From: Burkholderiales bacterium
GTDB taxonomy: Bacteria > Pseudomonadota > Gammaproteobacteria > Burkholderiales > Burkholderiaceae_C
DNA length: 64,000 nucleotides
Reading direction: 5' to 3'
Assembly (NCBI GenBank): GCA_013044035.1
Contig: JABEVE010000080.1
Span: 1-64,000 of the forward strand
This document shows positions 6,962-63,942 of this stretch, piece by piece. Position 1 is the first letter of the stretch, and each line of letters starts with the position of its first letter. The translations under genes and the position numbers were made by a program. The notes under the pieces are model-generated. The model was not told where the DNA came from and made no database searches. It worked only from the letters and a program-made list of their open reading frames with translations.

Positions 6962-6987
6962 CGAAAGACTCCACAGGGATCGGAAAA

Positions 6988-7032
6988 GCGATGAGGCCCG
7001 CACGCCTAGAACGGCGCCACGGGCCTCATCGC
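6988..7032 (-). terminator. Hairpin attenuator between dctP and dctQ
   Basis: GCGATGAGGCCCG (6988-7000) and CGGGCCTCATCGC (7020-7032) form a perfect 13-base stem with a 19-base loop. Read on the transcribed minus strand it is followed by CTTTTCC. It resembles a leaky intrinsic terminator that would let the binding protein be made in excess of the permease, as is common in binding-protein operons. Confidence 0.65.
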
Positions 7033-7044
7033 GCCATCAGGCGA

Positions 7045-8055
7045 TCACAACTTGGCCGGATCGAACCCAGTGGCCTTGAACACCTCCTCCATCAGTGCCT
7101 TGGGCACGCGCGCCTGGGCCTCGGCATAGACCGGGGCCATGGCCTTTTTCCACGCCAGCCGCTCCGCCGGGGTGAGTGCCACCACCTGGCATCTGCCGGA
7201 CTTGCGTACGGCTTCGGTGGCTTCCTCGTTGTCTTTGCGTGCCACGCCGTTGGCGAAGTCGGTGGATTCCTTCATCGCCTGATCCAGCGTCTTGCGGATG
7301 TCAGCCGGCAGGCCCTCCCAGAACGGCTTGTTGACGATCACCGCATAGCCCAGATAACCATGCTGGGTCTGGGTCATGAACTTCTGCACCTCGAAGAATT
7401 TCTGGGTGTAGAAATTCGACGGCGGGTTCTCGGTGCCGTCGACCACCCCGGTCTGCAGGGCCTGGTACACCTCGGAGAAGGCCAGCACCTGTGGAATACC
7501 GCCGATGGCGCGCATTTCCATTTCCAGAATCTTGCTCGATTGGATGCGCATCTTCAGGCCCTTGGCATCCGCCGGGCTGCGCAGAGCGCGGTTGGCGCTC
7601 ATGTCCTTGAACCCGTTGTCCCAGTAGGCCAGACCGAGGATGCCCTTGCTGTCGAGTTTTTTCAGCAGCCCCTGACCAATCGGGCCTTGGGTGATCTTGT
7701 GCAACTCCTCGTAGCTATCGAAGATGTAAGGCAGATCGAACAATTCGAATTCCTTCGCTCCCAGCGGCCCGAACTTCGCCAAGGATGGCGCGAGCATCTG
7801 CACCGAACCGAGTTGAAGCGCCTCCAGTTCTTCTTTGTCCTTGTAAAGTTGACTGTTGGGGTACACCTCGACCTTGACTCGCCCTTGCGTGCGCTCCTCG
7901 GCGAGCTTCTTGAAATGCTCGGCCGCCGCGCCCTTGGGCGTGTTCGGCGCAACCACGTGGCTGAATTTGATGACAATGGGTTGCTGCGCCCGCAGGATGG
8001 CGGGGGCCAGGAGCAAAGGGGCGGCGGTGATGAGTCGACGGCGTGAAATGGGCAT
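7045..8055 (-). CDS. dctP: TRAP solute-binding protein DctP (C4-dicarboxylate type)
   Basis: A 336-residue periplasmic receptor. It begins MPISRRRLITAAPLLLAPAI, a twin-Arg-like or Sec signal with RAQQ near the cleavage site, followed by IVIKFSHVVAPNTPKG. The motif VVDGTENPPSNFYTQKFFEV is characteristic of the DctP subfamily, which binds malate, succinate and fumarate. The start at 8055 is chosen because the signal peptide begins there; an upstream in-frame ATG at 8103 adds an unlikely extension. First gene of dctPQM. The C4-dicarboxylate assignment follows family membership and was not tested. Confidence 0.9.
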   Translation of the reverse strand: MPISRRRLITAAPLLLAPAILRAQQPIVIKFSHVVAPNTPKGAAAEHFKKLAEERTQGRVKVEVYPNSQLYKDKEELEALQLGSVQMLAPSLAKFGPLGAKEFELFDLPYIFDSYEELHKITQGPIGQGLLKKLDSKGILGLAYWDNGFKDMSANRALRSPADAKGLKMRIQSSKILEMEMRAIGGIPQVLAFSEVYQALQTGVVDGTENPPSNFYTQKFFEVQKFMTQTQHGYLGYAVIVNKPFWEGLPADIRKTLDQAMKESTDFANGVARKDNEEATEAVRKSGRCQVVALTPAERLAWKKAMAPVYAEAQARVPKALMEEVFKATGFDPAKL

Positions 8056-8330
8056 GATGGGTGTTGTGAACGAAGTGTTTCGGATAGCGACAAATTGTTG
8101 CAATTGAAACTATACCGCCTCACACGGAGGCTCTCAGCAGCACATGACCCCGAGCTTTCCTACAGTAGGGAGTATGTGGAGCGCCACTGAAAAAGATGTC
8201 GCCGCGCCGAGAGGGCAGAGCGTCATGGCCCGTCTGCAGCGACATCGCGACGGTCGCGGCACAATCGTGTCGCATTCATTCAGCTCCCTGCGTTGTCTCC
8301 ACGGACTGTTTCCACCCCTCGTACGCCGTC

Positions 8331-8876
8331 ATGTCCTCGCCTGCCGACACCGTCAACCAAGCCCATGCAGATGCGCCGCTTTCCGCGTGGATCGTGGCCC
8401 TGGGCTGGGCCGGAATCATTCCCTTTGCCGTCCTCGCTGCGACATCCTGGGCCAGCGCGGCCGATGCCTTGATGCAGCCCTTCGCCCTCGGCATGCTCAG
8501 CGCCTATGCGGCGCTGGTGCTGAGCTTCCTCGGCGCCGTGCATTGGGGTGTGGTGTTGGCACGGCCGCTGCATGACCTGCCTCTGCAACGCCTCGCGTTG
8601 CTCTGGGGCGTGGCTCCCGGCCTGATGGCGCTGGGCTGCCTGTTGATGCCGCGTGCCTGGGGCCTGCTGGCCCTGGCTTTGGTGATGTTGCTGGCACGCG
8701 CCCTGGACGGCCTGCTCTGGCCCGGCTACGCCCGCGCGGCACAGGCCGCAGGCTGGCCGGATGCCTCACGCTGGACTGGGCTTGCGGTCGGTTGGCTGCG
8801 CTTGCGCACGCGCCTGACCGCGGTCGTCGTGCTGTGCCTGGCGACGGGCTGGGCGTCGGCCTATTTCCGTGCGTAA
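8331..8876 (+). CDS. DUF3429 family membrane protein
   Basis: A 181-residue protein with about five membrane helices. The stretch SFLGAVHWGVVL at residues 63-74 is the hallmark of DUF3429 proteins (related to eukaryotic TMEM69), whose function is unknown. The ATG at 8331 gives a short polar N-terminus before the first helix; the in-frame start at 8196 would add a poorly conserved Cys-rich leader. It stands alone between dctP and the MocR regulator. Confidence 0.8.
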   Translation: MSSPADTVNQAHADAPLSAWIVALGWAGIIPFAVLAATSWASAADALMQPFALGMLSAYAALVLSFLGAVHWGVVLARPLHDLPLQRLALLWGVAPGLMALGCLLMPRAWGLLALALVMLLARALDGLLWPGYARAAQAAGWPDASRWTGLAVGWLRLRTRLTAVVVLCLATGWASAYFRA

Positions 8877-49081: not shown

Positions 49082-50155
49082 TCAGGCGGCGACCAGGGTC
49101 TGTGGGGCCTGGGTGCTGGGCCCCTTGCGGCCGATGAGGTGCAGCTTCACTGTGGTCTGCTCGTTCATCGCCGGCCGGTGGCGGCTGCGGAACAGGGCGT
49201 AGCGCGCCAACATGGCAGGGCGGCTGCGCTGGGCCAGAACCTGGCGATAGGCAAGCTCGCGGTGGATGTGCGCAGGCTCGCCGTCCAGCCGCAGCAGCGC
49301 GGCGCTCAGCGTGGCGTACTCGGCGCGGAAGTCGCTGCGCGCGCCCAGGTCGTAGAGCATGCCGCCGTGGTTGCAGAAGGGCGTCGGGTCGAACGCGGCG
49401 GCTCCAGTCATGGCGCTCACGCGCGCGGCCAGTTGCAGCGACACGGTGTGCGAGGCGGCCATTTGCGCAGCGAACTTCTGCCGCCCCACCCCGCCCGCAT
49501 GCATGCGATAGCGAATGAGTCGTTGCGGCAGATTGGCCACCAGGCCAAGCAAGGCGAGCTGGCCGAACAGGAAGTAGTCCTCCACCAGGTTTTCGAACGC
49601 GGGAACAGGCTGCACTTGGCCGCCAGAGCCGAAGGCCACGCCGTAGCACGCGCCCAGAGCTTGCAGCCGGTCCAGCCGCAGCGCCACCGTGGGATGCGCC
49701 ACCGGATTGCAGAACAGCATGGCCGCCTTGATGCGCGCGGGCGCCAGCGGCAGCGGATGCTGCGCCAGGGCGCGGCCCTGGGCGTCGAAATTGGTGAGCT
49801 GGCCACCGAGCACCACGATGTTCGGATACGCTGCGAAGCCCTCGGCGGTATGGCGCAGTCGCTCGGGCAGGGCGATGTCATCGGCATCGTGGCGCACCAC
49901 GTACTTCGCGTCACACAACCCAAGCCCGGCGTTGAGCAGGCCAGACAGGCCCCGGGCATCGGGCAGGGAGTGGATGTGGATGCGGGCATCGAGCTGCGCA
50001 CGGGACTGGGCGATGTCCAGGGTGTGGTCGCTGGAGCCGTGGTCAAGCACGAGAAGGCGCCAGTCGGTCAAGGTCTGGGCGCGGATGCTGTCCAGGGCCT
50101 CGGCCAGATAGGCTGCGCCATTTTTCACCGGCAGCAGGATGTCGAAACACGCCAT
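49082..50155 (-). CDS. GT2 glycosyltransferase
   Basis: A 357-residue enzyme. It has FDILLPVKNGAAYLAEALDS, LVLDHGSSDHTLDIAQSRA, and the DxD segment KYVVRHDADDIALPERL. The C-terminal half (from about residue 230) is helical and unlike the core. It is encoded just after the priming transferase and may add the second sugar, but the acceptor is not evident. Confidence 0.88.
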   Translation of the reverse strand: MACFDILLPVKNGAAYLAEALDSIRAQTLTDWRLLVLDHGSSDHTLDIAQSRAQLDARIHIHSLPDARGLSGLLNAGLGLCDAKYVVRHDADDIALPERLRHTAEGFAAYPNIVVLGGQLTNFDAQGRALAQHPLPLAPARIKAAMLFCNPVAHPTVALRLDRLQALGACYGVAFGSGGQVQPVPAFENLVEDYFLFGQLALLGLVANLPQRLIRYRMHAGGVGRQKFAAQMAASHTVSLQLAARVSAMTGAAAFDPTPFCNHGGMLYDLGARSDFRAEYATLSAALLRLDGEPAHIHRELAYRQVLAQRSRPAMLARYALFRSRHRPAMNEQTTVKLHLIGRKGPSTQAPQTLVAA

Positions 50156-50194
50156 GGTCAGTGCGACTCTGGTGGAGTGATGCTGGGCGGGGAC

Positions 50195-51589
50195 TCAATA
50201 GGCATTCGCACTGCGAAAACCCTTGAAAATGGTCGCGGCAATGATGCGTACATCCATGACCAGCGACCAGTTGTGGATGTACTGCATGTCGTACTCCACC
50301 CGTTTGACCATCTTTTCCATACTGTCGGTCTCGCCACGCCAACCGTTGATCTGCGCCCATCCGGTGATGCCCGGCTTGACCTTGTGACGCAGCATGTAGC
50401 CGTGGATCAGCACGCGGTATTGCTCGTTGTGCGAGACAGCGTGGGGCCGCGGCCCCACGATGGACATATGCCCTTGCAGCACATTGAAGAACTGCGGCAG
50501 TTCATCCAGGGAAGTGCTGCGCAGAAAGGCGCCCACTGAGGTGATGCGGCGATCACCACGGGTGGCTTGCACCACGGTGTCGCCGTTCTCGGTGACGGTC
50601 ATGCTGCGGAACTTCCACACCTCGACAATCTGTCCATTGAGGCCATAGCGGCGCTGCTTGAAGATCACCGGTCCAGGCGAGGTGAAGCGCACCGCCGCGG
50701 CAATGGCCAAAAGCAGCGGGCTGATGAGCAGCAGGATCAGGGAGGACACCGCCACGTCCTCGATGCGTTTGAGTATGCCGCTGACGCCGAAGAACGGCGA
50801 GTCGTAGACGCTGATGATGGGATGACCGGCGACCTCACGCCAGTTGGCATGGTTACGTTCGAGGATGTAGGAGGCGGGAACGATGAATACCGAGGCTGTG
50901 GTGTCGGCCAGATCGCGCACGAGGTGGCTGATGCGCTGCTCGGCGTCGATTGGCAGGGTGATGAAGACAGAGTCCAGGTGCCCCGCCCGGGCGTCGCGCA
51001 CGAGGGCGGCGAAATCGCCGACCAGCGAGAGGTCGCTTATCTCCAGACGCTTCACGGCGCGATCGTCGTAGACGCCAGCAACACGCAGGCCCGACCAGAT
51101 GCGATTGTTGAAGTGCTGGGCCATGAGATCCGCGGTGCGGTTCGCGCCGACGAAGGCCAGGATGCGGATGCCCACGCCGTGGCGCGCATTGTGCTCGATG
51201 CGGTAGCGCAGAAACACCCGCAGCGACACCATCAGGACGGGCACCGCCAACACCCAGACTCCCAGAGAGATCCGCGAGTACTGGGACGTGACGTGCAGCG
51301 CAAAGCCTATTGCCAGCAGCAAGGCCAGGACGGTCAACCAGACGATGGCAATCTGGCGGGCTTCTTCGGGAAAGGGCAGAAGTTGCCTTGTCCCGTACAA
51401 GTTCCAGAACCGGGCACTCAGCTGAAAGCACAAAAGCGCCGTGGTGACCAGCATGTAGAAACGGTCGCCAACCCGACCGTCGTTGATCAGGATGCTGAGC
51501 ACCAACACGCCGACAATCAGCATGACGTCGAAGAGGCGGAGAAAAAGTTCCCCGTTGTCGTAGGACGATTGCACGGCTCCACGTTCCAT
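50195..51589 (-). CDS. Undecaprenyl-phosphate sugar phosphotransferase (WcaJ/EpsB-like)
   Basis: A 464-residue initiating enzyme. Four N-terminal membrane helices and a CoA-binding-like domain ([20 protein letters not shown]) precede the catalytic domain (from about residue 280), with the [27 protein letters not shown] and [20 protein letters not shown] motifs. It transfers a hexose-1-phosphate, often glucose, to undecaprenyl phosphate. The start at 51589 follows GGGAGG. It is the first gene of the operon, and the 694-base gap upstream should hold the main promoter. Confidence 0.93.
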
Positions 51590-52283
51590 GGTTCGATCCT
51601 CCCATGTGTTACCAAGCGCCCATTCGACGAGGGCAACTTCAAATGTGAACCGCAACGCCCAAAGCTTTCAAACCATCCTCAATGCAGCTGGTGGCGTCTG
51701 TGACAAGCCGATCAGTACGGATGATTGACCAACTGATGCGGCTTGAAACTCGTATCGGGTGATGTAGCAGTCGTCAGTATTAAAGTACGGCAGAAAACTT
51801 GTTCGCACTGTGCGCTGCCGCACATAAGACCGAAAATTTATGCTGCCGTCTTGAGCTTTACTCCCACAAAGTGATGCGTGGATGTGCTCTTCAAGCAATT
51901 TCCAGACCAGGCCGAAGCATGGCCAGACCTGGCTTCGTAGCCCTTGGATCTGCGGACGTTGATCGAGCTGCGGCTCGGGAACATGCCATCTTCGCAGCGG
52001 CACACCGATCGTGTGCATCGCACTGCTGCAGTGCAGCATGCACAAGAGCGATGCCGACGGCAGCCTTGTCCAGCTTGGATGTTTCATCCCAGGCCAGCGC
52101 GGTAGAGGTTTGACCGCCGTTGAAGCGGCCAGACCGGTCCGTGCAACCTGGTGATGGCTGGGGCTTTGAAGCCCGTCTCTGAGTGCTTCGCGCACGGTCG
52201 CCGTGCTGGGCTTCCTGCAGCCCGAACGGTGACGAGCGCCGGCGTGTCCGAGCGCGCCTTCACAAGCAAGGGCACTGAAGACC
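51590..52283. other. Gap holding the polysaccharide operon promoter and an IS edge
   Basis: No coding sequence is convincing here; the long minus-strand frame covering it has shadow-like composition. The left part should hold the promoter of the phosphotransferase gene, but no clear -35/-10 pair is visible by eye. The right part, next to 52284, is probably the outer end of the IS110-type element. Confidence 0.4.
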
Positions 52284-53246
52284 ATGTCTTTTATCTCCGT
52301 GGTGGTGGGCATCGACGTGGCCAAGGCACACACGGATGTCTCGGCGCTGGGCGCCAAGTTTGATGCCCAGCGTTTCGACAACGAAGCCGAGGCGCACTCG
52401 GCGCTGGCGGCGGCGGTGTTGAAGCCGCTGGGCGTGACGCTGGTGGTGATGGAGGCCACCGGTGGCTAAGAGGCGGCACTGGTCTGTACGTTGCAGGTGC
52501 AGGGCCTGCCCGAGGTGGTGGTCAACCGGCGCCAGGCACGCGACTTGGCAAAGTCCATGACCGTCTGGCCAAGACCGACTGCATCGACGCCCGCATGCTG
52601 GTCGAGTTTGCGGGCGTGTTGGTGCGCCGCGACGATCTGGCCAGCTTCATCCGCCCTCTGGCCGATGCGCGACAACAGGTGCTGGCCACGATGGTCACAC
52701 GCAGGCGCCGACTCGTGACGATGATGTTGTCGGAGCGACAACGGCCGCAACTGACCACTGCGGTCGTGCGCCCGGGCATCGAGACCATGATCGAGGCGAT
52801 CCACAAGCAACTCGACGATATGGAGGCTCACATGACCAGCCACGTCCAGGCTCATGACGCCGAGTTGGACAAACTGCTGCGCCCGGCTAGCGGCATCGGC
52901 ACGGTGGCCAGCGTCCCCCTGATTGCCGAACTGCCTGAACTCGGCAAACTCAATCGCCGCGAGATCGCAAGCCTGGTGGGCGTGGCACGCATGACCCACG
53001 ATTCGGGCAACTCCAAGGGACGACGATGTGTGCAGGGCGAACGCTTCGAGATACGCTGCGCGCGCTCCACGGCCACACTATCGGCCGCTAACCCCGCTAT
53101 CGAGACTTTCTACGACCGACAGTTGAACGCCGGCAAGCTGCCAAAGGTCACCTGGGTCGCCTGCATGCGCGAGCTCTTGAGCGCGCTCAACGCGATGGTC
53201 AAAACCAACAAACCTGGGATCAATCGCTTCACGGCGCCCGACTTCA
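52284..53246 (+). mobile_element. IS110/IS1111-type transposase remnant with a nonsense codon and a frameshift
   Basis: The frame starts MSFISVVVGIDVAKAHTDVS, the DEDD-type start of IS110 transposases. TAA at 52467-52469 replaces a Tyr codon after VVMEATGG. A frameshift near 52557 (after RQARDLAKS) follows, restored in another frame with RLAKTDCIDARMLVEFAGVL. The C-terminal part has the GIGTVASVPLIAELPELGKL helix-hairpin stretch and ACMRELLSALNAMVK. It cannot make a full product. It lies on the right side of the exopolysaccharide region. Confidence 0.85.
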
Positions 53247-53351
53247 AGGCCGTTACTCGGAGTTTTAGGAGCAGAATTTGCGTTGGATGGGTGGCCATTC
53301 CGGTTCCGGTTGGCGCCCTCTCCAGCGTTTGCATTCGATTCCGGAGGATTC

Positions 53352-54137
53352 ATGCAACTAGACCCGACCCCGTCTCGGCAGCCGACCGCGGAAGAGCACT
53401 GCCGCTGGCGGCGCGACGGTTACCTGACGTTGCCTGGGTTGTTCTCCCGCGAGGCTTTGGCTGATGTGGAGCGGTTGCTCGATCCCCTATTCGCCGCCCA
53501 CCAGGCCACCGCTCTCGACGACTGGACCCAACACCGCGAGGGTCAAGCCACGTCCGTGGAACTGCTGCGCACCATCGAGCGCGAACCCCGGTTGCTCCAC
53601 ACAGAGGTCTACCGGCGTTGCGAAAGCTATGCTGCGCAGTTGCTGGACATGCCGGTGGAATGTGTGTTCGAGCACGCCATTCGCAAACCCGGCGGGGTTG
53701 GAACAGCCACCTACTGGCATCAGGACTGCTACTACGAAAAGGTGGAGCCCTACCGTTGCAAGCATCGGGTGCATTTCTGGATTCCTATGGCCGACGTCGT
53801 ACTACAAGGCGGCGCCATGCGCTACATCCCCGGCACGCATGGCGGCAAGCGTTATCCGCACACGATGATTCCTTCAGGCCACGATACCCATTACGTCATG
53901 GCCACCGGGTTCGACGAAGCCACGGCCGTAGACGCGCCTGTTGACGCAGGAGGGGCCATTGCGCACCACCCACGCCTGCTGCATGCCAGCGGCCCGAATG
54001 CGTCGTCTCAGGTGCGAACCGCCTGGATCCTGCAGTTCGCCCGGCCACGCACCTTCACGCAGAAACTGTATTTCCGCGCGCTGGGCTGGAAAACGCAGAC
54101 CATCGCCCGGCTCAACCTCAAGCCTGCAGCCGATTGA
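53352..54137 (+). CDS. Phytanoyl-CoA dioxygenase (PhyH)-family protein
   Basis: A 261-residue non-haem Fe(II)/2-oxoglutarate dioxygenase. The iron ligands are H123-x-D125 (TYWHQDCYY) and H211 (RLLHASGPN); R222 would hold the 2-oxoglutarate. MRYIPGTHGGKRYPH is a family-typical loop. GGAGG lies six bases before the ATG at 53352. The substrate is unknown; relatives hydroxylate lipids, amino acids and natural products. It stands alone between two transposase remnants, so it may be a leftover of a larger transferred segment. Confidence 0.88.
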   Translation: MQLDPTPSRQPTAEEHCRWRRDGYLTLPGLFSREALADVERLLDPLFAAHQATALDDWTQHREGQATSVELLRTIEREPRLLHTEVYRRCESYAAQLLDMPVECVFEHAIRKPGGVGTATYWHQDCYYEKVEPYRCKHRVHFWIPMADVVLQGGAMRYIPGTHGGKRYPHTMIPSGHDTHYVMATGFDEATAVDAPVDAGGAIAHHPRLLHASGPNASSQVRTAWILQFARPRTFTQKLYFRALGWKTQTIARLNLKPAAD

Positions 54138-54264
54138 GCGGCTGCAACGCACGGCGCAACCGAGGGGCGCACGCGGTTGATCGACACGCCGTCCCTGGTT
54201 CCTTCACGGCGAGTCCCGCCGTAGCTTTCGGATCAGCGATGTCGAACGAAGGGGCTCTGAGCGC

Positions 54265-55034
54265 CCCAGGGTAGCCGGCATCCTTCACCGGCGCCTCAAA
54301 GAACGCGATCAGGCGCTCATGGTTGAAGGCCCCGTCGATGATCATCCAGCGCGCCTTGCCCTGGTTGGTGACGCTGGCGATCATCGACAGCCCCTGACGT
54401 GTGCCGCCCGCGGCCATCGCCGCCGGCGTCTTACCCCTGGGCGCAAAGCTGCGGCCCCTGACGTCGGTGTTGACCAGCGCCGTCTCGTCACTTCAATGGA
54501 TTTCACCCTTCTCGGCCTTGGCGCGTTCGGCAAGGGCTGGGTATTGCGCAGGCATCCAGGCCCGCACCGCAGCAGGGGACTGTTCATAGGCGCAGCGGAT
54601 GGGCTTTTGCAGGGTGAGCCCCCAGCGCGCCAGATACTTGCCCACCGAGCGCACCTGCAAGGCCATGCCGCATTCGCGCTCGATGAGTTGCATCACGTCC
54701 GCTCGGCTCCACAGGGCAAGGTCCATCTTGAGTTGCTCAGGGCGGTGATCACAGATCATGCGTTGGTGGGTGTGCGCTTTCTGTTCCGCGCTGAGCAACC
54801 GCTGCTCCCCCGCGCGGCGGCCTCTGCGCTGGGGGCCAACGCAGCCATGCCACCGGATTCATAGCGGTCAATCGTCTTGCTCACCGCCGTGTAGCTCAGT
54901 CCCGCATCGGCGGCAATCTGCGTGCGCGTGTGCCCACGTTTGTGCGCCCGTATGACCTGCCTGCGCCGCTCATGTTGTTCGGCTGGCGTCAGCCGTCTTG
55001 CATCGTTTTTGTCCACGCTATTTCGCACGCGCAT
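54265..55034 (-). mobile_element. IS630-type transposase remnant, frameshifted, interrupted and truncated
   Basis: The N-terminal helix-turn-helix (ARRLTPAEQHERRRQVIRAH, IAADAGLSYTAVSKTIDRYE) is in one frame. After a shift near 54800 the next part (DLALWSRADVMQLIERECGM and VRSVGKYLARWGL) is in another. A TGA at 54493-54495 replaces Trp after GEIH. The last recognisable piece, RWMIIDGAFNHERLIAFFEA, ends near 54265, so the C-terminal catalytic Asp/Glu part is missing. It lies just before the ATP-grasp cluster. Confidence 0.82.
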
Positions 55035-55298
55035 TCATCCCTAAAGTTCTATCGATTTATGGGCCGAATCTATAAACGGCTGGTTTCCAGGTTTTTTATT
55101 CCTTTGGAGCGGCTGCCGCATTGCGGCAGCCTGGAGCGCACGGACCGCAGCGTCACGCGCGGCTGGCACAATCAGGCGGAAGGAACCGGTTTTGTTAGGT
55201 TCGGCGCCCGTGGCTCGCAGCATGAGTCCAACTGGCCTGATTTTTGCACGCAAGAACAAGCCATCCCAACTTCCCTCCAAGCTGGTCACAAACGAACC

Positions 55299-56720
55299 AT
55301 GCGCCATTTCGACGAGATGCATGCGGCCGACGGTGCCGTGCGGCCCCATTACGCCAGCTACGACCAGTGGCTGGGGGCGCAGCCGCCTTTGGCGATGCAG
55401 GCCAAGCGCGAGGAGGCGGAGCTGATCTTTCGCCGCGTCGGCATCACCTTCGCGGTGTATGGCGACGACGCCGGCACCGAGCGCCTCATCCCCTTCGACC
55501 TGATTCCGCGCATCATCCCGGCGCACGAGTGGCGCCATCTGGAGGCCGGACTGAAGCAGCGCGTGGCGGCGCTCAACCGCTTTTTGCATGATATCTACCA
55601 CGACCAGGACATCCTGCGCGCCGGCGTCATCCCCGCCGAGCAGGTGCTGGGCAACGCGCAGTACCGGCCGCAGATGCGGGGCATCACCCTGCCGCAGCAG
55701 GTCTATGCGCAGATTGCCGGGGTGGACATCGTGCGCGCCGCCAACGCCCAGGGCGAAGGCGAGTTCTATGTGCTGGAAGACAATCTGCGCGTGCCCTCGG
55801 GAGTGAGTTACATGCTGGAAAACCGGCGCATGATGATGCGCCTGTTCCCCGGCCTGTTCGCCCGCCACCCGGTGGCTCCGGTGGCCCATTACCCCGACCT
55901 GCTGCTGGAAAAACTGCGCGCCGTGGCGCCGCCCGCGGTCAACGACCCCACGGTGGTGGTACTCACCCCGGGCATGTACAACTCGGCCTACTTCGAGCAT
56001 GCCTTTCTCGCGCAGCAAATGGGCATCGAGCTGGTGGAAGGCAAGGATCTGTACGTGGAGGACGACTTCGTCTACATGCGCACCACGCAGGGGCCGCAGC
56101 GGGTGGACGTGATCTACCGCCGCATCGACGATGACTTCCTCGACCCACAAGCCTTCCGCGCCGACTCCGCCATCGGCTGCACTGGGCTGATGGCGGCCTA
56201 CCGCGCCGGCAACGTCAACCTGGCCAACGCCATCGGCACCGGCGTGGCCGACGACAAATCCATCTACCCCTACGTGCCGGCGATGATCGCGTTCTATCTC
56301 GGCGAAGAACCCCTGCTCAACAACGTGCCCACCCACCAGTGCCGCGAGGCCGACGGTCTGGGCTATGTGCTGGCACATCTGCCCGAGCTGGTGGTCAAGG
56401 AGGTGCATGGCGCCGGCGGCTACGGCATGCTGGTTGGCCCGGCGGCAAGCCAGGCCGAGTTGGCCGAGTTCGCCGCCAGGCTCAAGGCACACCCCGAGCG
56501 CTACATCGCCCAGCCGACGCTGGCGCTGTCCACCTGCCCCATCTTCGTCGAGGTCGGCATCGCGCCACGCCACATCGACCTGCGGCCGTTCGTGTTGTCG
56601 GGAAAAACGGTTTCGCTGGTGCCCGGCGGCCTCACCCGCGTGGCGCTGGCCGAAGGGTCTCTGGTGGTCAATTCTTCCCAGGGCGGTGGCACCAAAGACA
56701 CCTGGGTCCTGGAGCGCTGA
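55299..56720 (+). CDS. Circularly permuted type 2 ATP-grasp protein
   Basis: A 473-residue soluble protein of the DUF404/DUF407 type. Landmarks are RVGITFAVYGDDAGTERLIP, GEGEFYVLEDNLRVPSGVSY, LPELVVKEVHGAGGYGMLVG and SSQGGGTKDTWVLER. The fold is predicted to activate a carboxylate with ATP and join it to an amine, as in peptide-bond formation. The start at 55299 (MRHFDEMHAADGAV) fits family length. Its stop abuts the ATG of the alpha-E gene at 56721. Homologous to the N-terminal 510 residues of the last gene in the window. Confidence 0.9.
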   Translation: MRHFDEMHAADGAVRPHYASYDQWLGAQPPLAMQAKREEAELIFRRVGITFAVYGDDAGTERLIPFDLIPRIIPAHEWRHLEAGLKQRVAALNRFLHDIYHDQDILRAGVIPAEQVLGNAQYRPQMRGITLPQQVYAQIAGVDIVRAANAQGEGEFYVLEDNLRVPSGVSYMLENRRMMMRLFPGLFARHPVAPVAHYPDLLLEKLRAVAPPAVNDPTVVVLTPGMYNSAYFEHAFLAQQMGIELVEGKDLYVEDDFVYMRTTQGPQRVDVIYRRIDDDFLDPQAFRADSAIGCTGLMAAYRAGNVNLANAIGTGVADDKSIYPYVPAMIAFYLGEEPLLNNVPTHQCREADGLGYVLAHLPELVVKEVHGAGGYGMLVGPAASQAELAEFAARLKAHPERYIAQPTLALSTCPIFVEVGIAPRHIDLRPFVLSGKTVSLVPGGLTRVALAEGSLVVNSSQGGGTKDTWVLER

Positions 56721-57698
56721 ATGCTGAGCCGCACTGCCGATCATCTGTTCTGGATGGCCCGCTACACCGAGCGCGCCGAAAACACCGCGCGCATGCTCGA
56801 CGTGCAGCACCAGGCCGCGCTCCTGCCCCAGCCCGACGCCGGCAGCGCCGCCGCGGCGCGCTCGGCGGAGCATCTCGACTGGCAAGGCCTGCTGGGCATC
56901 TCCGAGCTGACCGAGGCTTACACCGCGCGTCACGGTGACATCGAAGCCGGCAAGGTGCTGGACTTCATGGTCAGCGACATGGGCAACCTCTCGTCCATCC
57001 AGAGCTGTTTGCGCGCGGCGCGCGAAAACGCCCGCGCGGTGCGCGGCGCCATCACCACCGAGGTGTGGGAAACCATCAACCAGACCTGGCTGGAATCGTG
57101 GCGGCTGCTGGCCGACGGCCGCTTCGAGCGCGACCCGGGCGAGTACTTCGAGTGGGTGAAAAACCGCTCGCATCTCTCGCGCGGCGTCACCTCCGGCACC
57201 ATGCTGCAGGACGAGGCGTTTCACTTCCTGCGCATCGGCACCTTTCTGGAGCGCGCCGACAACACCGCGCGCCTGCTGGATGTGAAGTTCCACGCGCTGC
57301 AAGCCGAATTCCACGGCTCGGCCAACGGCAGGCTGCAGGAATACGACTTCTATTACTGGTCCAGCGTGCTGCGCTCGGTCTCGGGTTTCGAGGTGTACCG
57401 CAAGGTCTACCGCGACGTCATCACCCCCGAGCGCGTGGCCGAGTTGCTCATTTTGCGGCCCGACATGCCGCGCTCACTCGCCGCCTGCCTGCTGGAGGGC
57501 ACGGTGCATTTGCGCGCCGTGGCGAACCGCGGCTCGCAGGAAACCCTGCGCCGAGCCGGCCTGCTCAACGCCGAACTGCAATACGGCCAGGTGGCCGAAA
57601 TCATGGCCACCGGACTGCACGCCTGGCTCACCCGGTTTCTCGAACGCATCAACGACCTGGGCAACAGCATCAGCCAGGACTTTCTGGTGGCCTCCTGA
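56721..57698 (+). CDS. Alpha-E domain protein (DUF403)
   Basis: A 325-residue, mainly helical protein. It begins MLSRTADHLFWMARYTERAE and later has the FLRIGTFLERADNTARLLDV stretch. These E-R-A-x-N and R-Y-T-E-R-A-E runs are typical of the alpha-E family, which always appears beside circularly permuted ATP-grasp and transglutaminase-like genes. The biochemical role is unknown; it may bind the peptide substrate. It starts at the base after the ATP-grasp stop, so translation is coupled. The C-terminal third of the 860-residue gene is a second copy. Confidence 0.9.
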   Translation: MLSRTADHLFWMARYTERAENTARMLDVQHQAALLPQPDAGSAAAARSAEHLDWQGLLGISELTEAYTARHGDIEAGKVLDFMVSDMGNLSSIQSCLRAARENARAVRGAITTEVWETINQTWLESWRLLADGRFERDPGEYFEWVKNRSHLSRGVTSGTMLQDEAFHFLRIGTFLERADNTARLLDVKFHALQAEFHGSANGRLQEYDFYYWSSVLRSVSGFEVYRKVYRDVITPERVAELLILRPDMPRSLAACLLEGTVHLRAVANRGSQETLRRAGLLNAELQYGQVAEIMATGLHAWLTRFLERINDLGNSISQDFLVAS

Positions 57699-57834
57699 GC
57701 GCGCCCGATATCCCCACACATGCCGCTGCGATGATCCTCGACCCGACGTCGCCTCCAGTCGCACGCCCCCTGTCTCGCAACATCCCTTTCCGCCGCCTTC
57801 ACGCGCTCGCCGCCCCAAGTCCACAGGTGCCTCC

Positions 57835-60800
57835 ATGGCCATCCACGTCGCCTTAAGCCACATCACCACCTATCGCTTCGACCGGCCTGTCAACCTCTCC
57901 CCGCACGTGGTACGCCTGCGCCCGGCGCCGCATTGCCGCACCCCCATCCTGTCGTTCAGCCAGCGGGTCGAGCCGGGCGAGCATTTCGTCAACTGGCTGC
58001 AGGATCCGTTCGCCAACTACCAGGCGCGGCTGGTGTTCCCCGAGAAGACGCAACTGCTGCAGATCGCCGTCGACCTGGTGGCCGAGATGTCGGTCTACAA
58101 CCCCTTCGACTTTTTTCTCGAACCTGAGGCCGCCGAATTCCCCTTCCGCTACGCGCCCGAACTGCAGGAGGAACTGGCGCCTTACCTGCAGGCCGGCCCC
58201 CGCACCCCCAGGCTGGCGGCGCTGCTCGACAGCATCGACCTGAGCCAGCCGCGGCGCACGCAGGACTTCATCGTCGACATCAACCGCCGTCTGCAGCGCG
58301 ACATCAGCTACCTCATCCGCATGGAGCCCGGGGTGCAGACGCCCGAGCTGACCCTCGAACTCGCCTGCGGCTCCTGCCGCGACACCGGCTGGCTGCTGGT
58401 GCAGGTGCTGCGGCATCTGGGCCTGGCGGCACGCTTCGTCTCCGGCTATCTCATCCAGCTCACGCCCGACGTCAAGGCGCTCGACGGCCCCAGCGGCGCC
58501 ACGTCCGACTTCACCGACCTGCACGCCTGGTGCGAGGTGTTCCTACCCGGTGCCGGCTGGATCGGCCTCGACCCCACCTCCGGCCTGCTCACCGGCGAAG
58601 GCCACATCCCGCTGGCCTGCAGCCCGTCGCCATCCAGCGCTGCGCCGGTGGAGGGGCTGGTGGACGCATGCGAGGTCGACTTCAGCCACCACATGACCGT
58701 GACGCGGGTGTACGAGTCGCCGCGCGTCACCAAGCCCTACACCGACGACCAGTGGCAGGCCGTGCTGACCCTGGGCGAAGTCGTCGACCAGCAACTCAGG
58801 AACGGCGACGTGCGCCTGACCCAGGGCGGCGAACCCACCTTCGTCGCCATCACCGACCGCGACGCGCCGGAGTGGAACACCGACGCGCAAGGCCCCACCA
58901 AACGTGGCTACGCCGGCGAGCTGATCCACAAACTCATCGCCCGCTACGGCCCCGGCGGCTTTTTGCACTTCGGCCAGGGCAAGTGGTACCCGGGCGAGCA
59001 ACTGCCGCGCTGGGCGTTGTCGGCCGTGTGGCGGCGCGACGGCCAGCCCTGCTGGCACGACGCGTCGCTGTTCGCCGACGAGCGCCAGGGCGGCCAGGCC
59101 ACCCTGGCGGACGCCAACACCTTCATGCTCGCCCTGGTGGATGCCCTCGGCGTAAACCCGTCGCATGTGCAGCCTGGCTATGAAGATGCCTGGTACTACC
59201 TGTGGCGCGAGCGTCGCCTGCCGGTGAACGTCGACCCCTTCGACGCGCGGGTGGAGGACGAACTGGAACGCAAGCGCCTGCACCGCGTGTTCGAGCAGGG
59301 CCTGCGCACGCCCACCGGCTACGCCTTGCCGCTGCGGCGCGACGTGGCCAGCATGGGAGTTTCCCCAGGCCTCGGGGCGGCCAACGGCGTCGCCCTGCGC
59401 GGGCCGCACTGGGTCTCCGGCCCCTGGTTTTTCCGCGACGAGCGCATGTATCTGTTCCCCGGCGACTCGGCCATGGGCTGGCGCCTGCCGCTGGACTCGC
59501 TGCCCTGGGCGACTGCCGGCGACCGCCAGGCCGACTTCACCCCCGACCCGTTCGCGCCGCGCCGGCCGCTGCCCGACGCCGCGCCGTTGCGCCGCCAATT
59601 CGGCCCCGGCAGCGGTTGGGACGCGCACCGCACCGGGGACGGTTTCGCCCCAGACGGCACGGTCGCGGTGCAGAACCAGGAGCGTGGCGCACCAGCAGGG
59701 GGCGCAGGCAGGCCGGCGGCGGCGCCCACCGGCACGGCCGCCGCGGTCGAACTGCCGCCGGCCCGGTTCACCTCCGCCGCCAGCACCGTGCGCACCGCGC
59801 TGTGCGTGCAGGCGCGCGGGGGCATTCTCTATGTGTTCATGCCGCCGTTGGCCGAGGTGGAAGACTATCTCGAACTGCTCGCCGCCATCGAGTCCACGGC
59901 GCAGCGTCTGCAGGTCAAGCTGGTGCTCGAAGGCTACCCGCCGCCGCGCGACCCGCGCCTGGTACTGCTGCAGGTCACGCCCGACCCCGGAGTCATCGAA
60001 GTCAACATCCATCCGGCGCACAACTGGGCCGAAATCGTCGATCACACCGAGTTCCTGTACCAAGCGGCGTTCGAAACCCGCCTGGGGGCCGAGAAATTCA
60101 TGCTCGACGGCCGCCACACCGGAACCGGTGGCGGCAACCATGTGGTGCTGGGCGGCGCCACCCCGGCCGACAGCCCCTTCCTGCGCCGACCCGACCTGCT
60201 CGCCAGCCTGGTGGCCTACTGGCACAACCATCCATCCCTGAGCTATCTCTTCAGCGGCATGTTCATCGGCCCCACGAGCCAGGCGCCACGGGTGGACGAG
60301 GCGCGCAACGACCAGGTCTACGAGCTGGACATCGCCTTGGCGGAACTGCGCGCGCATCGGGAACGCCTGGCCCTTGATGCTCCACCATGGCTGGTGGACC
60401 GCACCCTGCGCAACATCCTCATCGACGTCACCGGCAACACCCACCGCAGCGAGTTCTGCATCGACAAGCTCTACAGCCCCGACAGCGCCACCGGGCGCCT
60501 GGGACTGCTGGAGCTGCGCGCCTTCGAGATGCCGCCACACGCGCGCATGAGCGTGGTCCAGCAACTGCTGCTGCGGGCGCTCATTGCCCGCTTCTGGAAT
60601 CAACCCTACACCGCGGCGCTGCAGCGCTGGGGCACGGCCCTGCACGACCGTTTCCTGCTGCCGACCTTCATCGCCATGGACTTCGACGACGTGCTCGCCG
60701 AGCTGCGCGACGCCGGCTTCGACTTCGATCCGCAGTGGTTCGCGCCGCACCACAGCTTCCGCTTCCCGCTGCTGGGCGAATACGCCGCCAGCGGCGTCAA

Positions 60801-61308
60801 GCTCGAGGTCCGCATGGCGCTGGAACCCTGGCATGTGATGGGCGAGGAAACCACGGCTGGCGGCACCGCGCGCTATGTCGATTCCTCGCTGGAACGGCTG
60901 GAGGTCAAGCTCAGCGGCATGGCCGACAGCCGCCATGTGCTCACCGTCAACGGCCGCGCCGTGCCGCTGCAGCCCACCGGGCGCAGCGGCGAGTTTGTGT
61001 GCGGCGTGCGCTACCGCGCCTGGCATCCGCCCTCCGCGCTCCACCCGAGCATCGGCGTGCATGCGCCGCTCACCTTCGACCTGGTCGACACCTGGATGGA
61101 GCGTTCGCTCGGTGGCTGTCAGTACTTCGTCGCCCACCCCGGGGGCCGCAGTTACGACACCTTTCCAGTGAACGCCTATGAGGCCGAGAGCCGGCGGCTG
61201 GCGCGCTTCACCGGCATCGGCCACACCCACGGGCGCATGGCGGTGGCGCCCGTCCGGCCCAGCCTGGAGTTCCCGTTCACGCTCGATTTGCGCCGGCGCA
61301 CAGGCTGA
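57835..61308 (+). CDS. Transglutaminase-like/DUF2126 fusion protein
   Basis: A 1157-residue protein. Residues 1-85 are a bacterial transglutaminase N-domain (IHVALSHITTYRFDRPVNLS). A transglutaminase/protease core follows with a putative triad C181 (ACGSCRDTGW), H230 (DLHAWCEV) and D246 (IGLDPTSG). DUF2126 occupies most of residues 290-1157, with RLTQGGEPTFVAITDRDAPE, FHFGQGKWYPGEQLPRWAL-like text, RHTGTGGGNHVVLGG and RFPLLGEYAASGVKLEVRM. An Ala/Pro/Gly-rich linker lies at about 610-640. No signal peptide. It may cleave or cross-link peptides made by the ATP-grasp partners. Confidence 0.88.
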   Translation: MAIHVALSHITTYRFDRPVNLSPHVVRLRPAPHCRTPILSFSQRVEPGEHFVNWLQDPFANYQARLVFPEKTQLLQIAVDLVAEMSVYNPFDFFLEPEAAEFPFRYAPELQEELAPYLQAGPRTPRLAALLDSIDLSQPRRTQDFIVDINRRLQRDISYLIRMEPGVQTPELTLELACGSCRDTGWLLVQVLRHLGLAARFVSGYLIQLTPDVKALDGPSGATSDFTDLHAWCEVFLPGAGWIGLDPTSGLLTGEGHIPLACSPSPSSAAPVEGLVDACEVDFSHHMTVTRVYESPRVTKPYTDDQWQAVLTLGEVVDQQLRNGDVRLTQGGEPTFVAITDRDAPEWNTDAQGPTKRGYAGELIHKLIARYGPGGFLHFGQGKWYPGEQLPRWALSAVWRRDGQPCWHDASLFADERQGGQATLADANTFMLALVDALGVNPSHVQPGYEDAWYYLWRERRLPVNVDPFDARVEDELERKRLHRVFEQGLRTPTGYALPLRRDVASMGVSPGLGAANGVALRGPHWVSGPWFFRDERMYLFPGDSAMGWRLPLDSLPWATAGDRQADFTPDPFAPRRPLPDAAPLRRQFGPGSGWDAHRTGDGFAPDGTVAVQNQERGAPAGGAGRPAAAPTGTAAAVELPPARFTSAASTVRTALCVQARGGILYVFMPPLAEVEDYLELLAAIESTAQRLQVKLVLEGYPPPRDPRLVLLQVTPDPGVIEVNIHPAHNWAEIVDHTEFLYQAAFETRLGAEKFMLDGRHTGTGGGNHVVLGGATPADSPFLRRPDLLASLVAYWHNHPSLSYLFSGMFIGPTSQAPRVDEARNDQVYELDIALAELRAHRERLALDAPPWLVDRTLRNILIDVTGNTHRSEFCIDKLYSPDSATGRLGLLELRAFEMPPHARMSVVQQLLLRALIARFWNQPYTAALQRWGTALHDRFLLPTFIAMDFDDVLAELRDAGFDFDPQWFAPHHSFRFPLLGEYAASGVKLEVRMALEPWHVMGEETTAGGTARYVDSSLERLEVKLSGMADSRHVLTVNGRAVPLQPTGRSGEFVCGVRYRAWHPPSALHPSIGVHAPLTFDLVDTWMERSLGGCQYFVAHPGGRSYDTFPVNAYEAESRRLARFTGIGHTHGRMAVAPVRPSLEFPFTLDLRRRTG

Positions 61309-61347
61309 GCCCACGCCCGGCCGGACGCCGGGCACCACCGACAATGT

Positions 61348-61353
61348 GACAAT
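61348..61353 (+). promoter_or_regulatory. GACAAT -10-like element six bases before ATG
   Basis: GACAAT ends at 61353 and the next ATG is 61360, the same spacing as at hemE. Another ACAAT lies at 61341-61345. It suggests that the fusion gene has its own promoter and perhaps a leaderless message, although it lies 51 bases after the preceding stop. Confidence 0.4.
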
Positions 61354-61359
61354 CGCTCC

Positions 61360-63942
61360 ATGGCAAGCCTGTTCCACACCGACCCCACCACGGATCCAGC
61401 CGACGCCCTGGTCGACCTTGCCGCTGACCTCGCCTCGCCGGTGCCACCCGGCCACTGGGACTCGCTGCGCTCGCGTCTGGGCGACGGCAGCACCGGCGCA
61501 CCCCTGGCTCCGCACTGGGCCCAGTTCTTCCGCCAGCTCGGGCCTGGGGGCTTCGACGGTCTGCCGGCGCGCGAAGCCCTGCTGCGCCAGCAGATCCACG
61601 ACGACGGCGTCACCTACAACGTCCACGCCGACGCCGAGCAGCCCAGCCGCGCTTGGTCGGTTGACCTGTTTCCACTGATCGTCAACGCCGCCTCCTGGGC
61701 CCAAATCGCCGCCGGCGCCGCGCAACGCGCCGCCCTGCTCAACACCATCCTGGCCGACATCTACACCGGGCCGCAACGCACCCTGCGCGAAGGCCTGTTG
61801 CCGCCAGCGCTGGTGCAGGGCAACCCCGGCTATCTGCGCGCGCTGCACGGCCACAGCCCACCGGGTGAGCTGTGGCTGCACATCGCCGCTTTCGACCTGG
61901 CGCGCGGGCCGGACGGCAACTGGCGCGTGGTCAACCAGCGGGTGCAGGCGCCATCGGGCCTGGGTTATCTGCTGGAGAACCGCCTGCTCATCTCGCGCCT
62001 ATTCCCCGAAGCCTTCAGCAGCCTGCGGGTGCAACGCCTGGCCGCCAGCTACCGCCTGGTGATGGACACGCTGCAGCGCCTCGCCCCGGGCGGACCGCAG
62101 GCGCGCATCGTGCTGCTCACGCCCGGCCCCTACAGCGAAACCTATTTCGAGCAGGTCTATCTCGCCCGCTACCTCGGCATCACCCTGGCTGAAGGCAACG
62201 ACCTGACGGTGCGCGAAGACCGCCTTTACCTCAAGACCCTGCGCGGCCTGGAGCCGGTGCACGCGGTGCTGCGCCGGCTCGACGACAGCTTTTGCGACCC
62301 GCTGGAGCTGCGGCCCGATTCCATGCTCGGCGTTCCCGGCCTGCTGCAGGCGGTTCGCGCCGGCAATGTGCTGCTGGCCAATGCCCTGGGCGCCGGCTTT
62401 CTCGAATCGCCCGCGGTGCACGGCTTCATGCCGCGGCTGTGCGAAACCCTGCTCGGCGAGCCGTTGATGCTGCCCTCGCTGCCCACCTGGTGGTGCGGCG
62501 AGCCTGGCGTGTGCGACGCGCCACTGGATGATCTGCGCGCCTGGGTGATCAAGCCGGTGCATGCCGAATGCGGCTTCGAAGCCGCCGTCACCGCCAGCCT
62601 CGACTTCGGCCAACTTCCGGCGTGGCGCCGCCGCGTGCAGACCCAGCCGGCGCAGGTGGCGCTGCAGCAATACCTGCCGCTGCCGCATGTGCCGGTGTGG
62701 AGCGACGGCCGCATGGGTGCGCGCGCCGCGATGCTGCGCGTCTATGCACTGGCCGACGGCCGCGGCGGCTGGCGCGTGCTGCCGGGCGGCCTGGTGCGCA
62801 CCGCGCCGCCCGGCGGCAACACGGTGTCGATGCAGCGCGGCGGCGGCAGCCAGGACGCCTGGATCATCACCGGCGAGGCGGTGGACGACAGCACCATGCT
62901 GCCCGCTCCCATGCGCCCGCAGGACCTGGTGCAGCGCCACCGCGCCGTCACCAGTCGCGCAGCGGAAAATCTCTTCTGGATCGGGCGCTACACCGAGCGC
63001 GCCGAGCACAGCACGCGTCTGGCCCAGCTCGCGCTACAGGCGCTCTCGGGCGACGACGACCTCGGCCCGGCGGTGCATGCCGTGCTCGACCAATGGTGCC
63101 GCCGCAGCGGCCTGGTGGACTTGGACACGCCCCAACTTGGCGAGCAGCCCCAGGGCTTCGAGCGCGCGCTCATTCGCGGCCTGGTGGCCGGGCGGCATGC
63201 CGGCGGCATCGTGCAGAACCTGCAGGCGCTGGGGCATGCGGCAGGGCAGGTGCGCGAGCGCCTGGGCGCCGAGCACCGGCAGTGGATCGGGGCCGCGGCC
63301 GCGGTCGAAATCCTGCCGCCGAGCAGCGCCCCGCAGCATGCCGATTGGCAGGAATGGCAGCCCAGCCAGGCGATGCAGGGGCTGGACCGCATCAGCGAAA
63401 TCCTCTGCGCCATCACTGGCGCGCAGACCGATCGCATGACCCGCGACGACGGCTGGCGCCTGCTCAGCATCGGCCGTCACATCGAACGCCTGATCCTCAT
63501 GGCCGATGCCCTGAACAGCGCCTTCGCCACCGGCGCGGTGCGCAGCGACAGCGGCTTCAACCTGCTGCTGCGCCTGTTCAACAGCATCATCACCTATCGC
63601 GCGCTCTACCAGAAGCGGCTGGAAGTCCCTCCCCTGCTCGACCTGCTGGTGCTCGACCGCGAGAACCCCCGTGCCCTGGGCTGGGTGGCGCAAACCCTGC
63701 AGGCGCGCCTGGCCAAGCTGCCCGGCAGCAGCACCGACCGCGAGGCCCTGCTGGCACTCGCGCCCGACCCCGACGCCTGGCATCTGCCCGAGCTGTGCGT
63801 GCACGACACCGCCCATCGCCACGCCTGGCTGGAACAGACTCTGACACAAATCAGCGCCACCACCTGGCGCCTGTCGGACGACATCAGCCGCCGTTACTTT
63901 GCCCATGTCGGTGCGGTCGATCGCAGCCTGGGCGGCTACTGA
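61360..63942 (+). CDS. Circularly permuted ATP-grasp/alpha-E fusion protein
   Basis: An 860-residue protein. Residues 1-510 are a circularly permuted ATP-grasp domain (WRVVNQRVQAPSGLGYLLEN, LRAWVIKPVHAECGFEAAVT, VSMQRGGGSQDAWIITGEAV). Residues 530-860 are an alpha-E domain (AAENLFWIGRYTERAEHSTR, later LLSIGRHIERLILMADALNS). The order is that of the two separate genes at 55299 and 56721. The ATP-grasp half is longer at its N-terminus. Some glycine-rich-loop residues differ between the copies, so the two may act on different substrates. The 58 bases after its stop hold no complete gene. Confidence 0.9.
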   Translation: MASLFHTDPTTDPADALVDLAADLASPVPPGHWDSLRSRLGDGSTGAPLAPHWAQFFRQLGPGGFDGLPAREALLRQQIHDDGVTYNVHADAEQPSRAWSVDLFPLIVNAASWAQIAAGAAQRAALLNTILADIYTGPQRTLREGLLPPALVQGNPGYLRALHGHSPPGELWLHIAAFDLARGPDGNWRVVNQRVQAPSGLGYLLENRLLISRLFPEAFSSLRVQRLAASYRLVMDTLQRLAPGGPQARIVLLTPGPYSETYFEQVYLARYLGITLAEGNDLTVREDRLYLKTLRGLEPVHAVLRRLDDSFCDPLELRPDSMLGVPGLLQAVRAGNVLLANALGAGFLESPAVHGFMPRLCETLLGEPLMLPSLPTWWCGEPGVCDAPLDDLRAWVIKPVHAECGFEAAVTASLDFGQLPAWRRRVQTQPAQVALQQYLPLPHVPVWSDGRMGARAAMLRVYALADGRGGWRVLPGGLVRTAPPGGNTVSMQRGGGSQDAWIITGEAVDDSTMLPAPMRPQDLVQRHRAVTSRAAENLFWIGRYTERAEHSTRLAQLALQALSGDDDLGPAVHAVLDQWCRRSGLVDLDTPQLGEQPQGFERALIRGLVAGRHAGGIVQNLQALGHAAGQVRERLGAEHRQWIGAAAAVEILPPSSAPQHADWQEWQPSQAMQGLDRISEILCAITGAQTDRMTRDDGWRLLSIGRHIERLILMADALNSAFATGAVRSDSGFNLLLRLFNSIITYRALYQKRLEVPPLLDLLVLDRENPRALGWVAQTLQARLAKLPGSSTDREALLALAPDPDAWHLPELCVHDTAHRHAWLEQTLTQISATTWRLSDDISRRYFAHVGAVDRSLGGY

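Follow-up and report, generated by a model that had tools for sequence, protein, structure and literature searches.

What do two apparent ATP-grasp ligases, each with an Alpha-E partner, join when they stand beside a transglutaminase-fold protein carrying the large domain DUF2126, and under which condition? The question is raised by a run of genes (G1–G5; Table 1) at the 3' end of the window, by which is meant the whole stretch of 64,000 nucleotides analysed (positions 1 to 64,000 of the forward strand of contig JABEVE010000080.1, GenBank assembly GCA_013044035.1, from a Burkholderiales bacterium). A peptide/amide system of this kind was linked to the proteasome-like protein Anbu by Iyer et al. 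(2009), according to papers that cite that work (PMC5666114, PMC3597751, PMC6376114; published statements are given here as they stand in excerpts of the papers cited); a product has been predicted for the ligase system since 2009. In a preliminary description, drawn up from the letters alone, the locus was predicted to make or modify peptides by two successive ligations, and its remark that no product has been shown agrees with the literature excerpts searched, in which none is reported for the system. The reading tentatively preferred here is that of a sigma-54-type five-gene operon which would make and break amide bonds in nitrogen limitation, with G4 as a retained pseudoenzyme and nitrogen scavenging as the net role.

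Residues were compared in 34 G1-type proteins (420–560 aa) and 66 G4-type proteins (>780 aa) from 80 related loci, to which three proteins of the same genome and 11 of other genomes were added; copies that were shorter or cut by contig ends were left out. From 591 candidate stretches the best 80 were taken as related loci; they show a bias to Burkholderiales and Pseudomonas and are interrelated, so that counts taken from them are not independent. In the alignment of G1-type proteins G1 keeps D143, E160, N162, K320 and K367, and these residues are present in all 41 sequences, the window's G1 among them. G4 has N, R and P at the positions of E160, N162 and K320, and none of the three residues occurs in any of the 73 G4-type fusions (window counted), 70 of which have R at position 162. 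D427 is likewise absent from all 73 and K367 is retained by 52, D143 and R429, both of which are also invariant in G1-type proteins, being kept throughout. The glycine-rich loop (G373, G374, G376) is mostly gone, G374 remaining in 19/67, and in the Alpha-E half R101, E102, N103, E117, N120 and R149 are gone in most copies, with E177-R178 kept in 66–67 of 67. The two types were split by one branch with a support of 100/100 in a tree of 53 of the 114 proteins, for some G4-type rows of which a long-branch warning was given. One of the 41 G1-type rows (L127_a, 875 aa) is itself fused to Alpha-E and keeps all catalytic residues; the loss therefore belongs to the G4 lineage and not to fusion itself. 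Because its dN/dS values against the two nearest relatives are 0.17 and 0.28 (0.11–0.32 for the other four genes), G4 is probably a pseudoenzyme under selection, retained for something other than ordinary ATP-grasp catalysis. Decay to a pseudogene was considered and rejected on the same two values and on the 66 intact proteins of >780 aa found in the 80 loci.

The preliminary description had counted two complete ligase/Alpha-E pairs, a count that stands by Pfam domain names, with the second pair as one fused protein, and fails for that second pair by invariant residues. The residue loss in G4 argues against the two successive ligations built upon it. A model in which both pairs are active and ligate one after the other to yield one peptide product appears improbable: the two pairs recognized by Pfam, the overall fold and the retention of D143, R429 and, in most copies, K367 speak in its favour, and against these stand the loss of the E-x-N pair, the lysine and D427 from every G4-type fusion, the mostly missing glycine-rich loop and an Alpha-E half that is degenerate, without R-E-N and other invariants. 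Some pseudoenzymes have been found to do unusual chemistry, so the loss is no proof against such a model. A literature search returned no paper on an inactive ATP-grasp protein; Iyer et al. (2009) lay outside this search, so an earlier report is possible, and the G4-type fusion itself may already have been described there or by others.

The structural model of G4 (pLDDT 80) gave 3N6X as its top fold match (Foldseek, E 2.6e-29), with glutathione and glutathionylspermidine synthetases, YgiC and the pseudodipeptide ligase Cp1B (9CJN, E 2.2e-8) among the further matches. The ATP-grasp fold is common to 3N6X, the two synthetases and Cp1B; no Alpha-E partner has been described for any of these, the last three have known substrates, and G4 is without their E-x-N pair. 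In Cp1B residues R139, D141, E163 and N165 encircle the adenosine, and alanine at each position abolished or clearly weakened activity (PMC12568646). These nearest folds, together with the description of YgiC and YjfC as peptidylpolyamine synthetases (PMC12568646), would suit the biosynthesis of a small peptide or polyamine conjugate, similar to glutathionylspermidine, for storage, signalling or stress protection. We regard this as rather unlikely: export genes recur in at most 3/80 loci (among the 40 largest neighbour clusters, some of them annotated), uptake-type ABC transporter genes recur in 6–7 loci and are better suited to scavenging, and the storing of nitrogen during nitrogen starvation is hard to rationalize.

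The catalytic residues of G1, in contrast to those of G4, look intact in the alignment, and G1 is predicted to be an active circularly permuted (CP) ATP-grasp ligase. Its match to the solved relative 3N6X has an E of 4.3e-220 (phmmer), and 3N6X is the sole PDB match of the G1 profile. D318, E330-x-N332, K498 and K533 of E. coli Gss were set against D143, E160-x-N162, K320 and K367 of G1 by motif order and spacing only, the matching stretch in Gss being R-M-D...E-Y-N; the catalytic roles of the Gss residues, and hence the roles of the ATP-binding lysines in G1, are presumed by analogy with that enzyme. In G2 the residues E177-R178 and R101-E102-N103 are conserved in 34–35 of 35 sequences (window counted), no solved structure was matched by the Alpha-E sequence below E 0.5, and G2 is presumed to be the partner of G1. 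ATP-independent behaviour of the purified ligases had been named in the preliminary description as evidence that would count against its prediction; a purified G1 homologue from Yersinia bercovieri bears on this point in that phosphate was released from ATP, amide formation and hydrolysis being indistinguishable to the authors (PMC6376114). Two other pairs were seen in passing: a third ATP-grasp/Alpha-E pair of this genome (G000 contig C16:5683-8143; L116 4684-7144), with intact catalytic residues, and, in L127 (G258 contig C5, tblastn 6385-8823), an 875-aa frame in which a G1-type ATP-grasp is fused to Alpha-E, next to a G4-type fusion.

The transglutaminase-fold domain of G3 covers residues about 6–247 and DUF2126 residues 277–1153. 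The candidate triad C181-H230-D246 of G3 is invariant in 13/13 aligned sequences (window counted), and the G3 model matches the putative cysteine protease 3ISR (Foldseek, E 1.1e-8); in G5 the candidate triad is C204-H247-D263, and an alignment of 68 sequences shows these positions conserved at 95% or above. The triad residues were assumed from general knowledge of the fold, and so chosen both triads look intact. What stands of the predicted peptide-making or peptide-modifying system is thus a form of the Anbu-linked amide system with one ligase pair and both triads apparently intact, and the second ligation is the part that does not.

The features of the locus are collected in Table 1. Chance was ruled out for the Pfam assignments of the first four open reading frames (ORFs), the scores of which lie far over the curated cut-offs, and the four consecutive plus-strand genes of the preliminary description are borne out in position, strand and domains; no NCBIfam family was assigned to the G1–G4 proteins. 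The intergenic gaps G1–G2, G2–G3 and G3–G4 are 0, 136 and 51 bases. The start of G5 is a prediction: the gene finder favoured 64096, but the Pfam domain starts at 64054.

Table 1. Features of the five-gene locus (window coordinates; those of G5 run on along the contig).
Feature	Position	Strand	Remarks
Sigma-54 (-24/-12) promoter motif TGGCCTGATTTTTGCA	55233..55248	+	Predicted; 51-66 bp 5' of first start codon; motif score 13.8
G1, CP-ATP-grasp ligase, 473 aa	55299..56720	+	Pfam CP_ATPgrasp_2 PF14403, E 4.6e-166
G2, Alpha-E, 325 aa	56721..57698	+	Pfam PF04168, E 2.6e-96
G3, transglutaminase fold + DUF2126	57835..61308	+	Bact_transglu_N 1.7e-22; Transglut_core 4.4e-13; DUF2126 E 0
G4, ATP-grasp/Alpha-E fusion, 860 aa	61360..63942	+	CP_ATPgrasp_2 4.1e-136; Alpha-E 2.7e-57
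G5, transglutaminase-fold protein, 312 aa	63988..64000, on to contig 64926	+	Start predicted in window; Bact_transglu_N 2.6e-23; Transglut_core 1.4e-22

The score of 13.8 for the motif before G1 compares with 4.7 for the runner-up upstream of the same gene and with best scores of 5.1, 5.9 and 9.9 before G2, G3 and G4; over the 64-kb window, both strands counted, four sites score at least 13.5. When the region was aligned with the nearest relatives, L036 and L037, the motif stood out as the only long stretch conserved between the diverged intergenic sequences. In the relatives a cut-off of score >=11 was applied and regions of <250 bases were left out. Sites were found before 76/91 first genes of either module (the two modules are described below), before 32/542 other genes of these loci and before 3/21 inner genes; rescoring of the same 91 regions gave 75 on the forward strand, one fewer than before because of rounding, with 12 on the reverse strand and five with the spacer increased by 2. 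By locus, at least one site was present in 62 of the 73 loci scored and none in 11. An NtrC-type palindrome (GCAC-N7-GTGC) lay within 400 bp of 15/91 first genes, against 9/752. The genome carries a sigma-54 gene, and the motif before its third pair on contig C16 (TGGCATGGGGCTTGCT) scores 17.9, higher than that of the window. In relatives where G1–G2 stands immediately 5' of G3, L036 and L037 among them, no motif site was found before G3, which suggests one transcript. A TGGCAC farther upstream in the window, spotted by eye, was dropped as its spacing was unfit.

Published expression data on relatives point to control by nitrogen or NtrC. In a Burkholderia cenocepacia ntrC mutant the genes I35_5080-5083 (ATP-grasp, Alpha-E, transglutaminase, large transglutaminase protein) changed by log2 -8.2, -9.4, -9.4 and -6.0, and they are described as NtrC- and sigma-54-dependent (PMC5491218). 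In Pseudomonas putida, PP_2685, PP_2688 and urtA rose by log2 +4.44, +3.99 and +4.37 on nitrate versus ammonium (PMC8050072), PP_2686-2688 were up 11–15-fold under nitrogen limitation (PMC7801951) and PP2685-2687 were up 6.6–11.1-fold and 2.6–4.6-fold in two nutrient-limited comparisons (PMC3325844). A sigma-54 regulon survey lists COG3484, a proteasome-type protease (PMC12316311), and in marine metagenomes these domains were associated with urea metabolism (PMC3597751). A search of the literature excerpts by locus tag and by words found no knock-out phenotype of counterpart genes, and a search for DUF2126 among the papers available gave no match.

Judged by gene content and order, the cluster is two joined modules: ATP-grasp/Alpha-E, as in Anbu operons, and TG–DUF2126/fusion/TG (TG, transglutaminase). 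G3, G4 and G5 are all held by 67/80 loci, in 65 of which they follow in that order on one strand, and most of the other 13 loci are truncated by contig ends; L122, L127 and L128 were poorly parsed by the gene finder and were read by tblastn. G1–G2 precedes this module on the same strand in 16 loci (the form seen in the window) and divergently in 18; it lies downstream in two, is partial in three and is missing from 41, some of which are cut at contig ends. Thiomonas delicata (L037) is the nearest named species among the 80 loci; it and a metagenome-assembled genome (L036) have the same five-gene order and the conserved promoter motif, with G3 identities of 81% and 79%. The order in a Burkholderia locus, L039, is ATP-grasp, Alpha-E, short transglutaminase, TG–DUF2126, fusion and transglutaminase, in agreement with the descriptions of B. 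cenocepacia I35_5080-5083, where a short transglutaminase also stands between Alpha-E and the large protein. The window looks like the L039 arrangement minus this short transglutaminase; in L039 and L044 a gene of that type comes after Alpha-E, and none is beside G2.

The second module is joined to the active pair in several arrangements and could in itself be a separate, Anbu-independent machine for nitrogen starvation, conjugating and releasing an amine or peptide nitrogen source, with the dead fusion, old and conserved, as a non-catalytic substrate-binding or allosteric subunit of a DUF2126 ligase. This is a possibility that we hold with more doubt than belief; pseudoenzymes can regulate active cousins.

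The Anbu side of the comparison was followed through the class. The query was a 244-aa gene that stands beside an ATP-grasp/Alpha-E pair in L124 and was taken as Anbu; its homologue in L125 matches the Pfam Proteasome family. With it (E up to 1e-20) the assembly of this genome, 3.7 Mb and 95% complete, gave no Anbu match, and the sole proteasome-family match adjoins an HslU-like gene (named by eye) and was taken as HslV, so that the absence of Anbu remarked on earlier for the window extends to the whole of that assembly. Anbu is present in 68, Alpha-E in 79 and DUF2126 in 50 of 274 class genomes; Alpha-E accompanies DUF2126 in 50/50, Anbu is found in 65 of the 79 genomes with Alpha-E, and seven of the 50 with DUF2126, this one counted, are without Anbu. 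Lack of Anbu is a minority condition rather than an anomaly. A G4-type fusion occurs in six of these seven, against 14 of the 43 DUF2126 genomes with Anbu, the fusions being crudely called as open frames of >=840 aa with an Alpha-E score of <246 bits.

The operon is an Anbu-less relative and not a complete Anbu operon. With the Anbu operon (P. putida PP_2685-2688, Y. bercovieri), which is nitrogen-induced in P. putida, it shares the families and the order of G1 and G2. The window has transglutaminase (the N-terminal domain of G3, and G5) but no Anbu was found in the assembly; its third gene is TG–DUF2126 and not the short transglutaminase, and is followed by the pseudo-ATP-grasp/Alpha-E fusion and a second transglutaminase. 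The ligase and Alpha-E parts belong with the Anbu-linked amide system, and the DUF2126 module with its dead fusion is the distinctive part.

For the Anbu operon a role in protein tagging or turnover has been proposed, in which the ligase would tag proteins and a protease or transglutaminase-fold enzyme would remove the tag or degrade the protein, recovering amino acids. The frequent presence of Anbu in class genomes with Alpha-E, the nitrogen induction, which suits protein turnover, the zinc peptidase near the DUF2126 module in some loci (see below) and a structural study in which inhibitor binding is used as an argument for Anbu being a protease (PMC5666114) lend it some support. For the present locus it is nevertheless unlikely: this genome and six others of the 50 with DUF2126 lack Anbu, the three standard peptides tried on purified Anbu proteins all stayed uncleaved, and no operon partner was found to bind specifically to Anbu of Y. 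bercovieri (both PMC6376114). The peptidase is a zinc-ribbon Peptidase_Mx found near the cluster in 10/80 loci (L062, L065, L066, L067, L069, L071, L072, L078, L106 and L108), possibly in place of Anbu. In L125 (G084 contig C5) TG–DUF2126, ATP-grasp, Alpha-E and an Anbu-like gene form one run with a second Anbu-like gene nearby, an arrangement intermediate between the two modules.

The preferred reading can be put as a sequence of steps. ATP-grasp ligases first form an acyl phosphate and then the amide, and transglutaminase-fold cysteine enzymes hydrolyse or transfer amides. G1 with its Alpha-E partner G2 would be a working ligase that proceeds through an acyl phosphate, like glutathione and glutathionylspermidine synthetases; the DUF2126 of G3 would be a candidate second ligase with an attached transglutaminase-fold amidase or transferase, and G5 a further hydrolase or transferase of that fold. 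G4 probably binds substrate, nucleotide or a partner without ordinary catalysis and may serve the DUF2126 module as a scaffold or a regulatory subunit. Amines or peptide amides would be conjugated by the ligase and the conjugates reopened by the transglutaminase-fold step, releasing usable nitrogen. We infer co-transcription, all of the substrates, the partner role of G4 and the direction of flux. Scavenging is tentatively preferred because of the nitrogen control and the urea-type neighbours: in L117 (1607-11001) and L085 (2246-7303) a G1–G2-type pair is followed by one opposite-strand gene (333–344 aa), then by an urtA-like gene and others that resemble transporter genes. In L117 no sigma-54 motif precedes the urtA-like gene itself (score 1.7).

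Several points weigh against this reading. Scavenging is something we infer, and storage, signalling or protein tagging would fit the same facts. The urt-type neighbours were named by eye, the first gene being the one run on Pfam (Peripla_BP_5), and the bias and relatedness of the 80 loci noted above bear on all counts drawn from them. A good motif site is lacking before 15/91 first genes, and the window's G1 has no NtrC-type palindrome with <2 mismatches within 400 bp. In a P. putida rpoN mutant PP_2686-2688 were still induced 14–20-fold and urtA-D 7–17-fold (PMC7801951), so that sigma-54 may not be the only route; in the same work the Anbu gene PP_2685 was flat in the wild type (1.12-fold), and the Anbu operon was unchanged under several other conditions (PMC5666114). 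On the side of the enzymes, hhalign found no significant match between G1 and E. coli Gss (probability 0.1%). DUF2126 is a putative amidoligase by its Pfam name, and the model of this domain of G3 is weak (pLDDT 62), with glutamine synthetases at E 0.3–0.5 only and the remaining Foldseek matches (TM 0.06) being noise.

With the preferred reading the system would gain a concrete condition (nitrogen limitation), a control element to mutate and a simplified, Anbu-free form. It also predicts, in a form open to testing, that labour is divided and that only one of the two apparent ligases is active, and the question shifts from two ligations to what is joined in nitrogen-starved cells by the one intact ATP-grasp and by DUF2126.

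The preliminary description had proposed that the flank beyond 64000 be checked for Anbu or another transglutaminase. The contig extends 2.7 kb past the window and ends at 66715; the further transglutaminase found there is G5, and no Anbu is present up to the contig end. On the 3' side G5 is followed by a YCII-type protein and then a glyoxalase-type protein. A RidA/YjgF-family gene lies near the cluster in 18 loci (L040, L041, L043, L050 and 14 more; 19 tblastn matches, one of them in L119), mostly downstream of G5 and, in L046, L060 and L064, upstream of G1.

Upstream of the operon the window shares nothing with L036 and L037 outside the motif region, and because the shared upstream sequence is limited in this way the locus has probably been rearranged. 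The upstream neighbour in L037 is a priA-like gene (named by eye), whereas at 52595-54864 of the window an IS110-type transposase fragment, a PhyH dioxygenase gene and an HTH_33 fragment are found. Farther upstream, glycosyl transferase and sugar transferase genes on the minus strand (49082-51655) possibly belong to an exopolysaccharide cluster.

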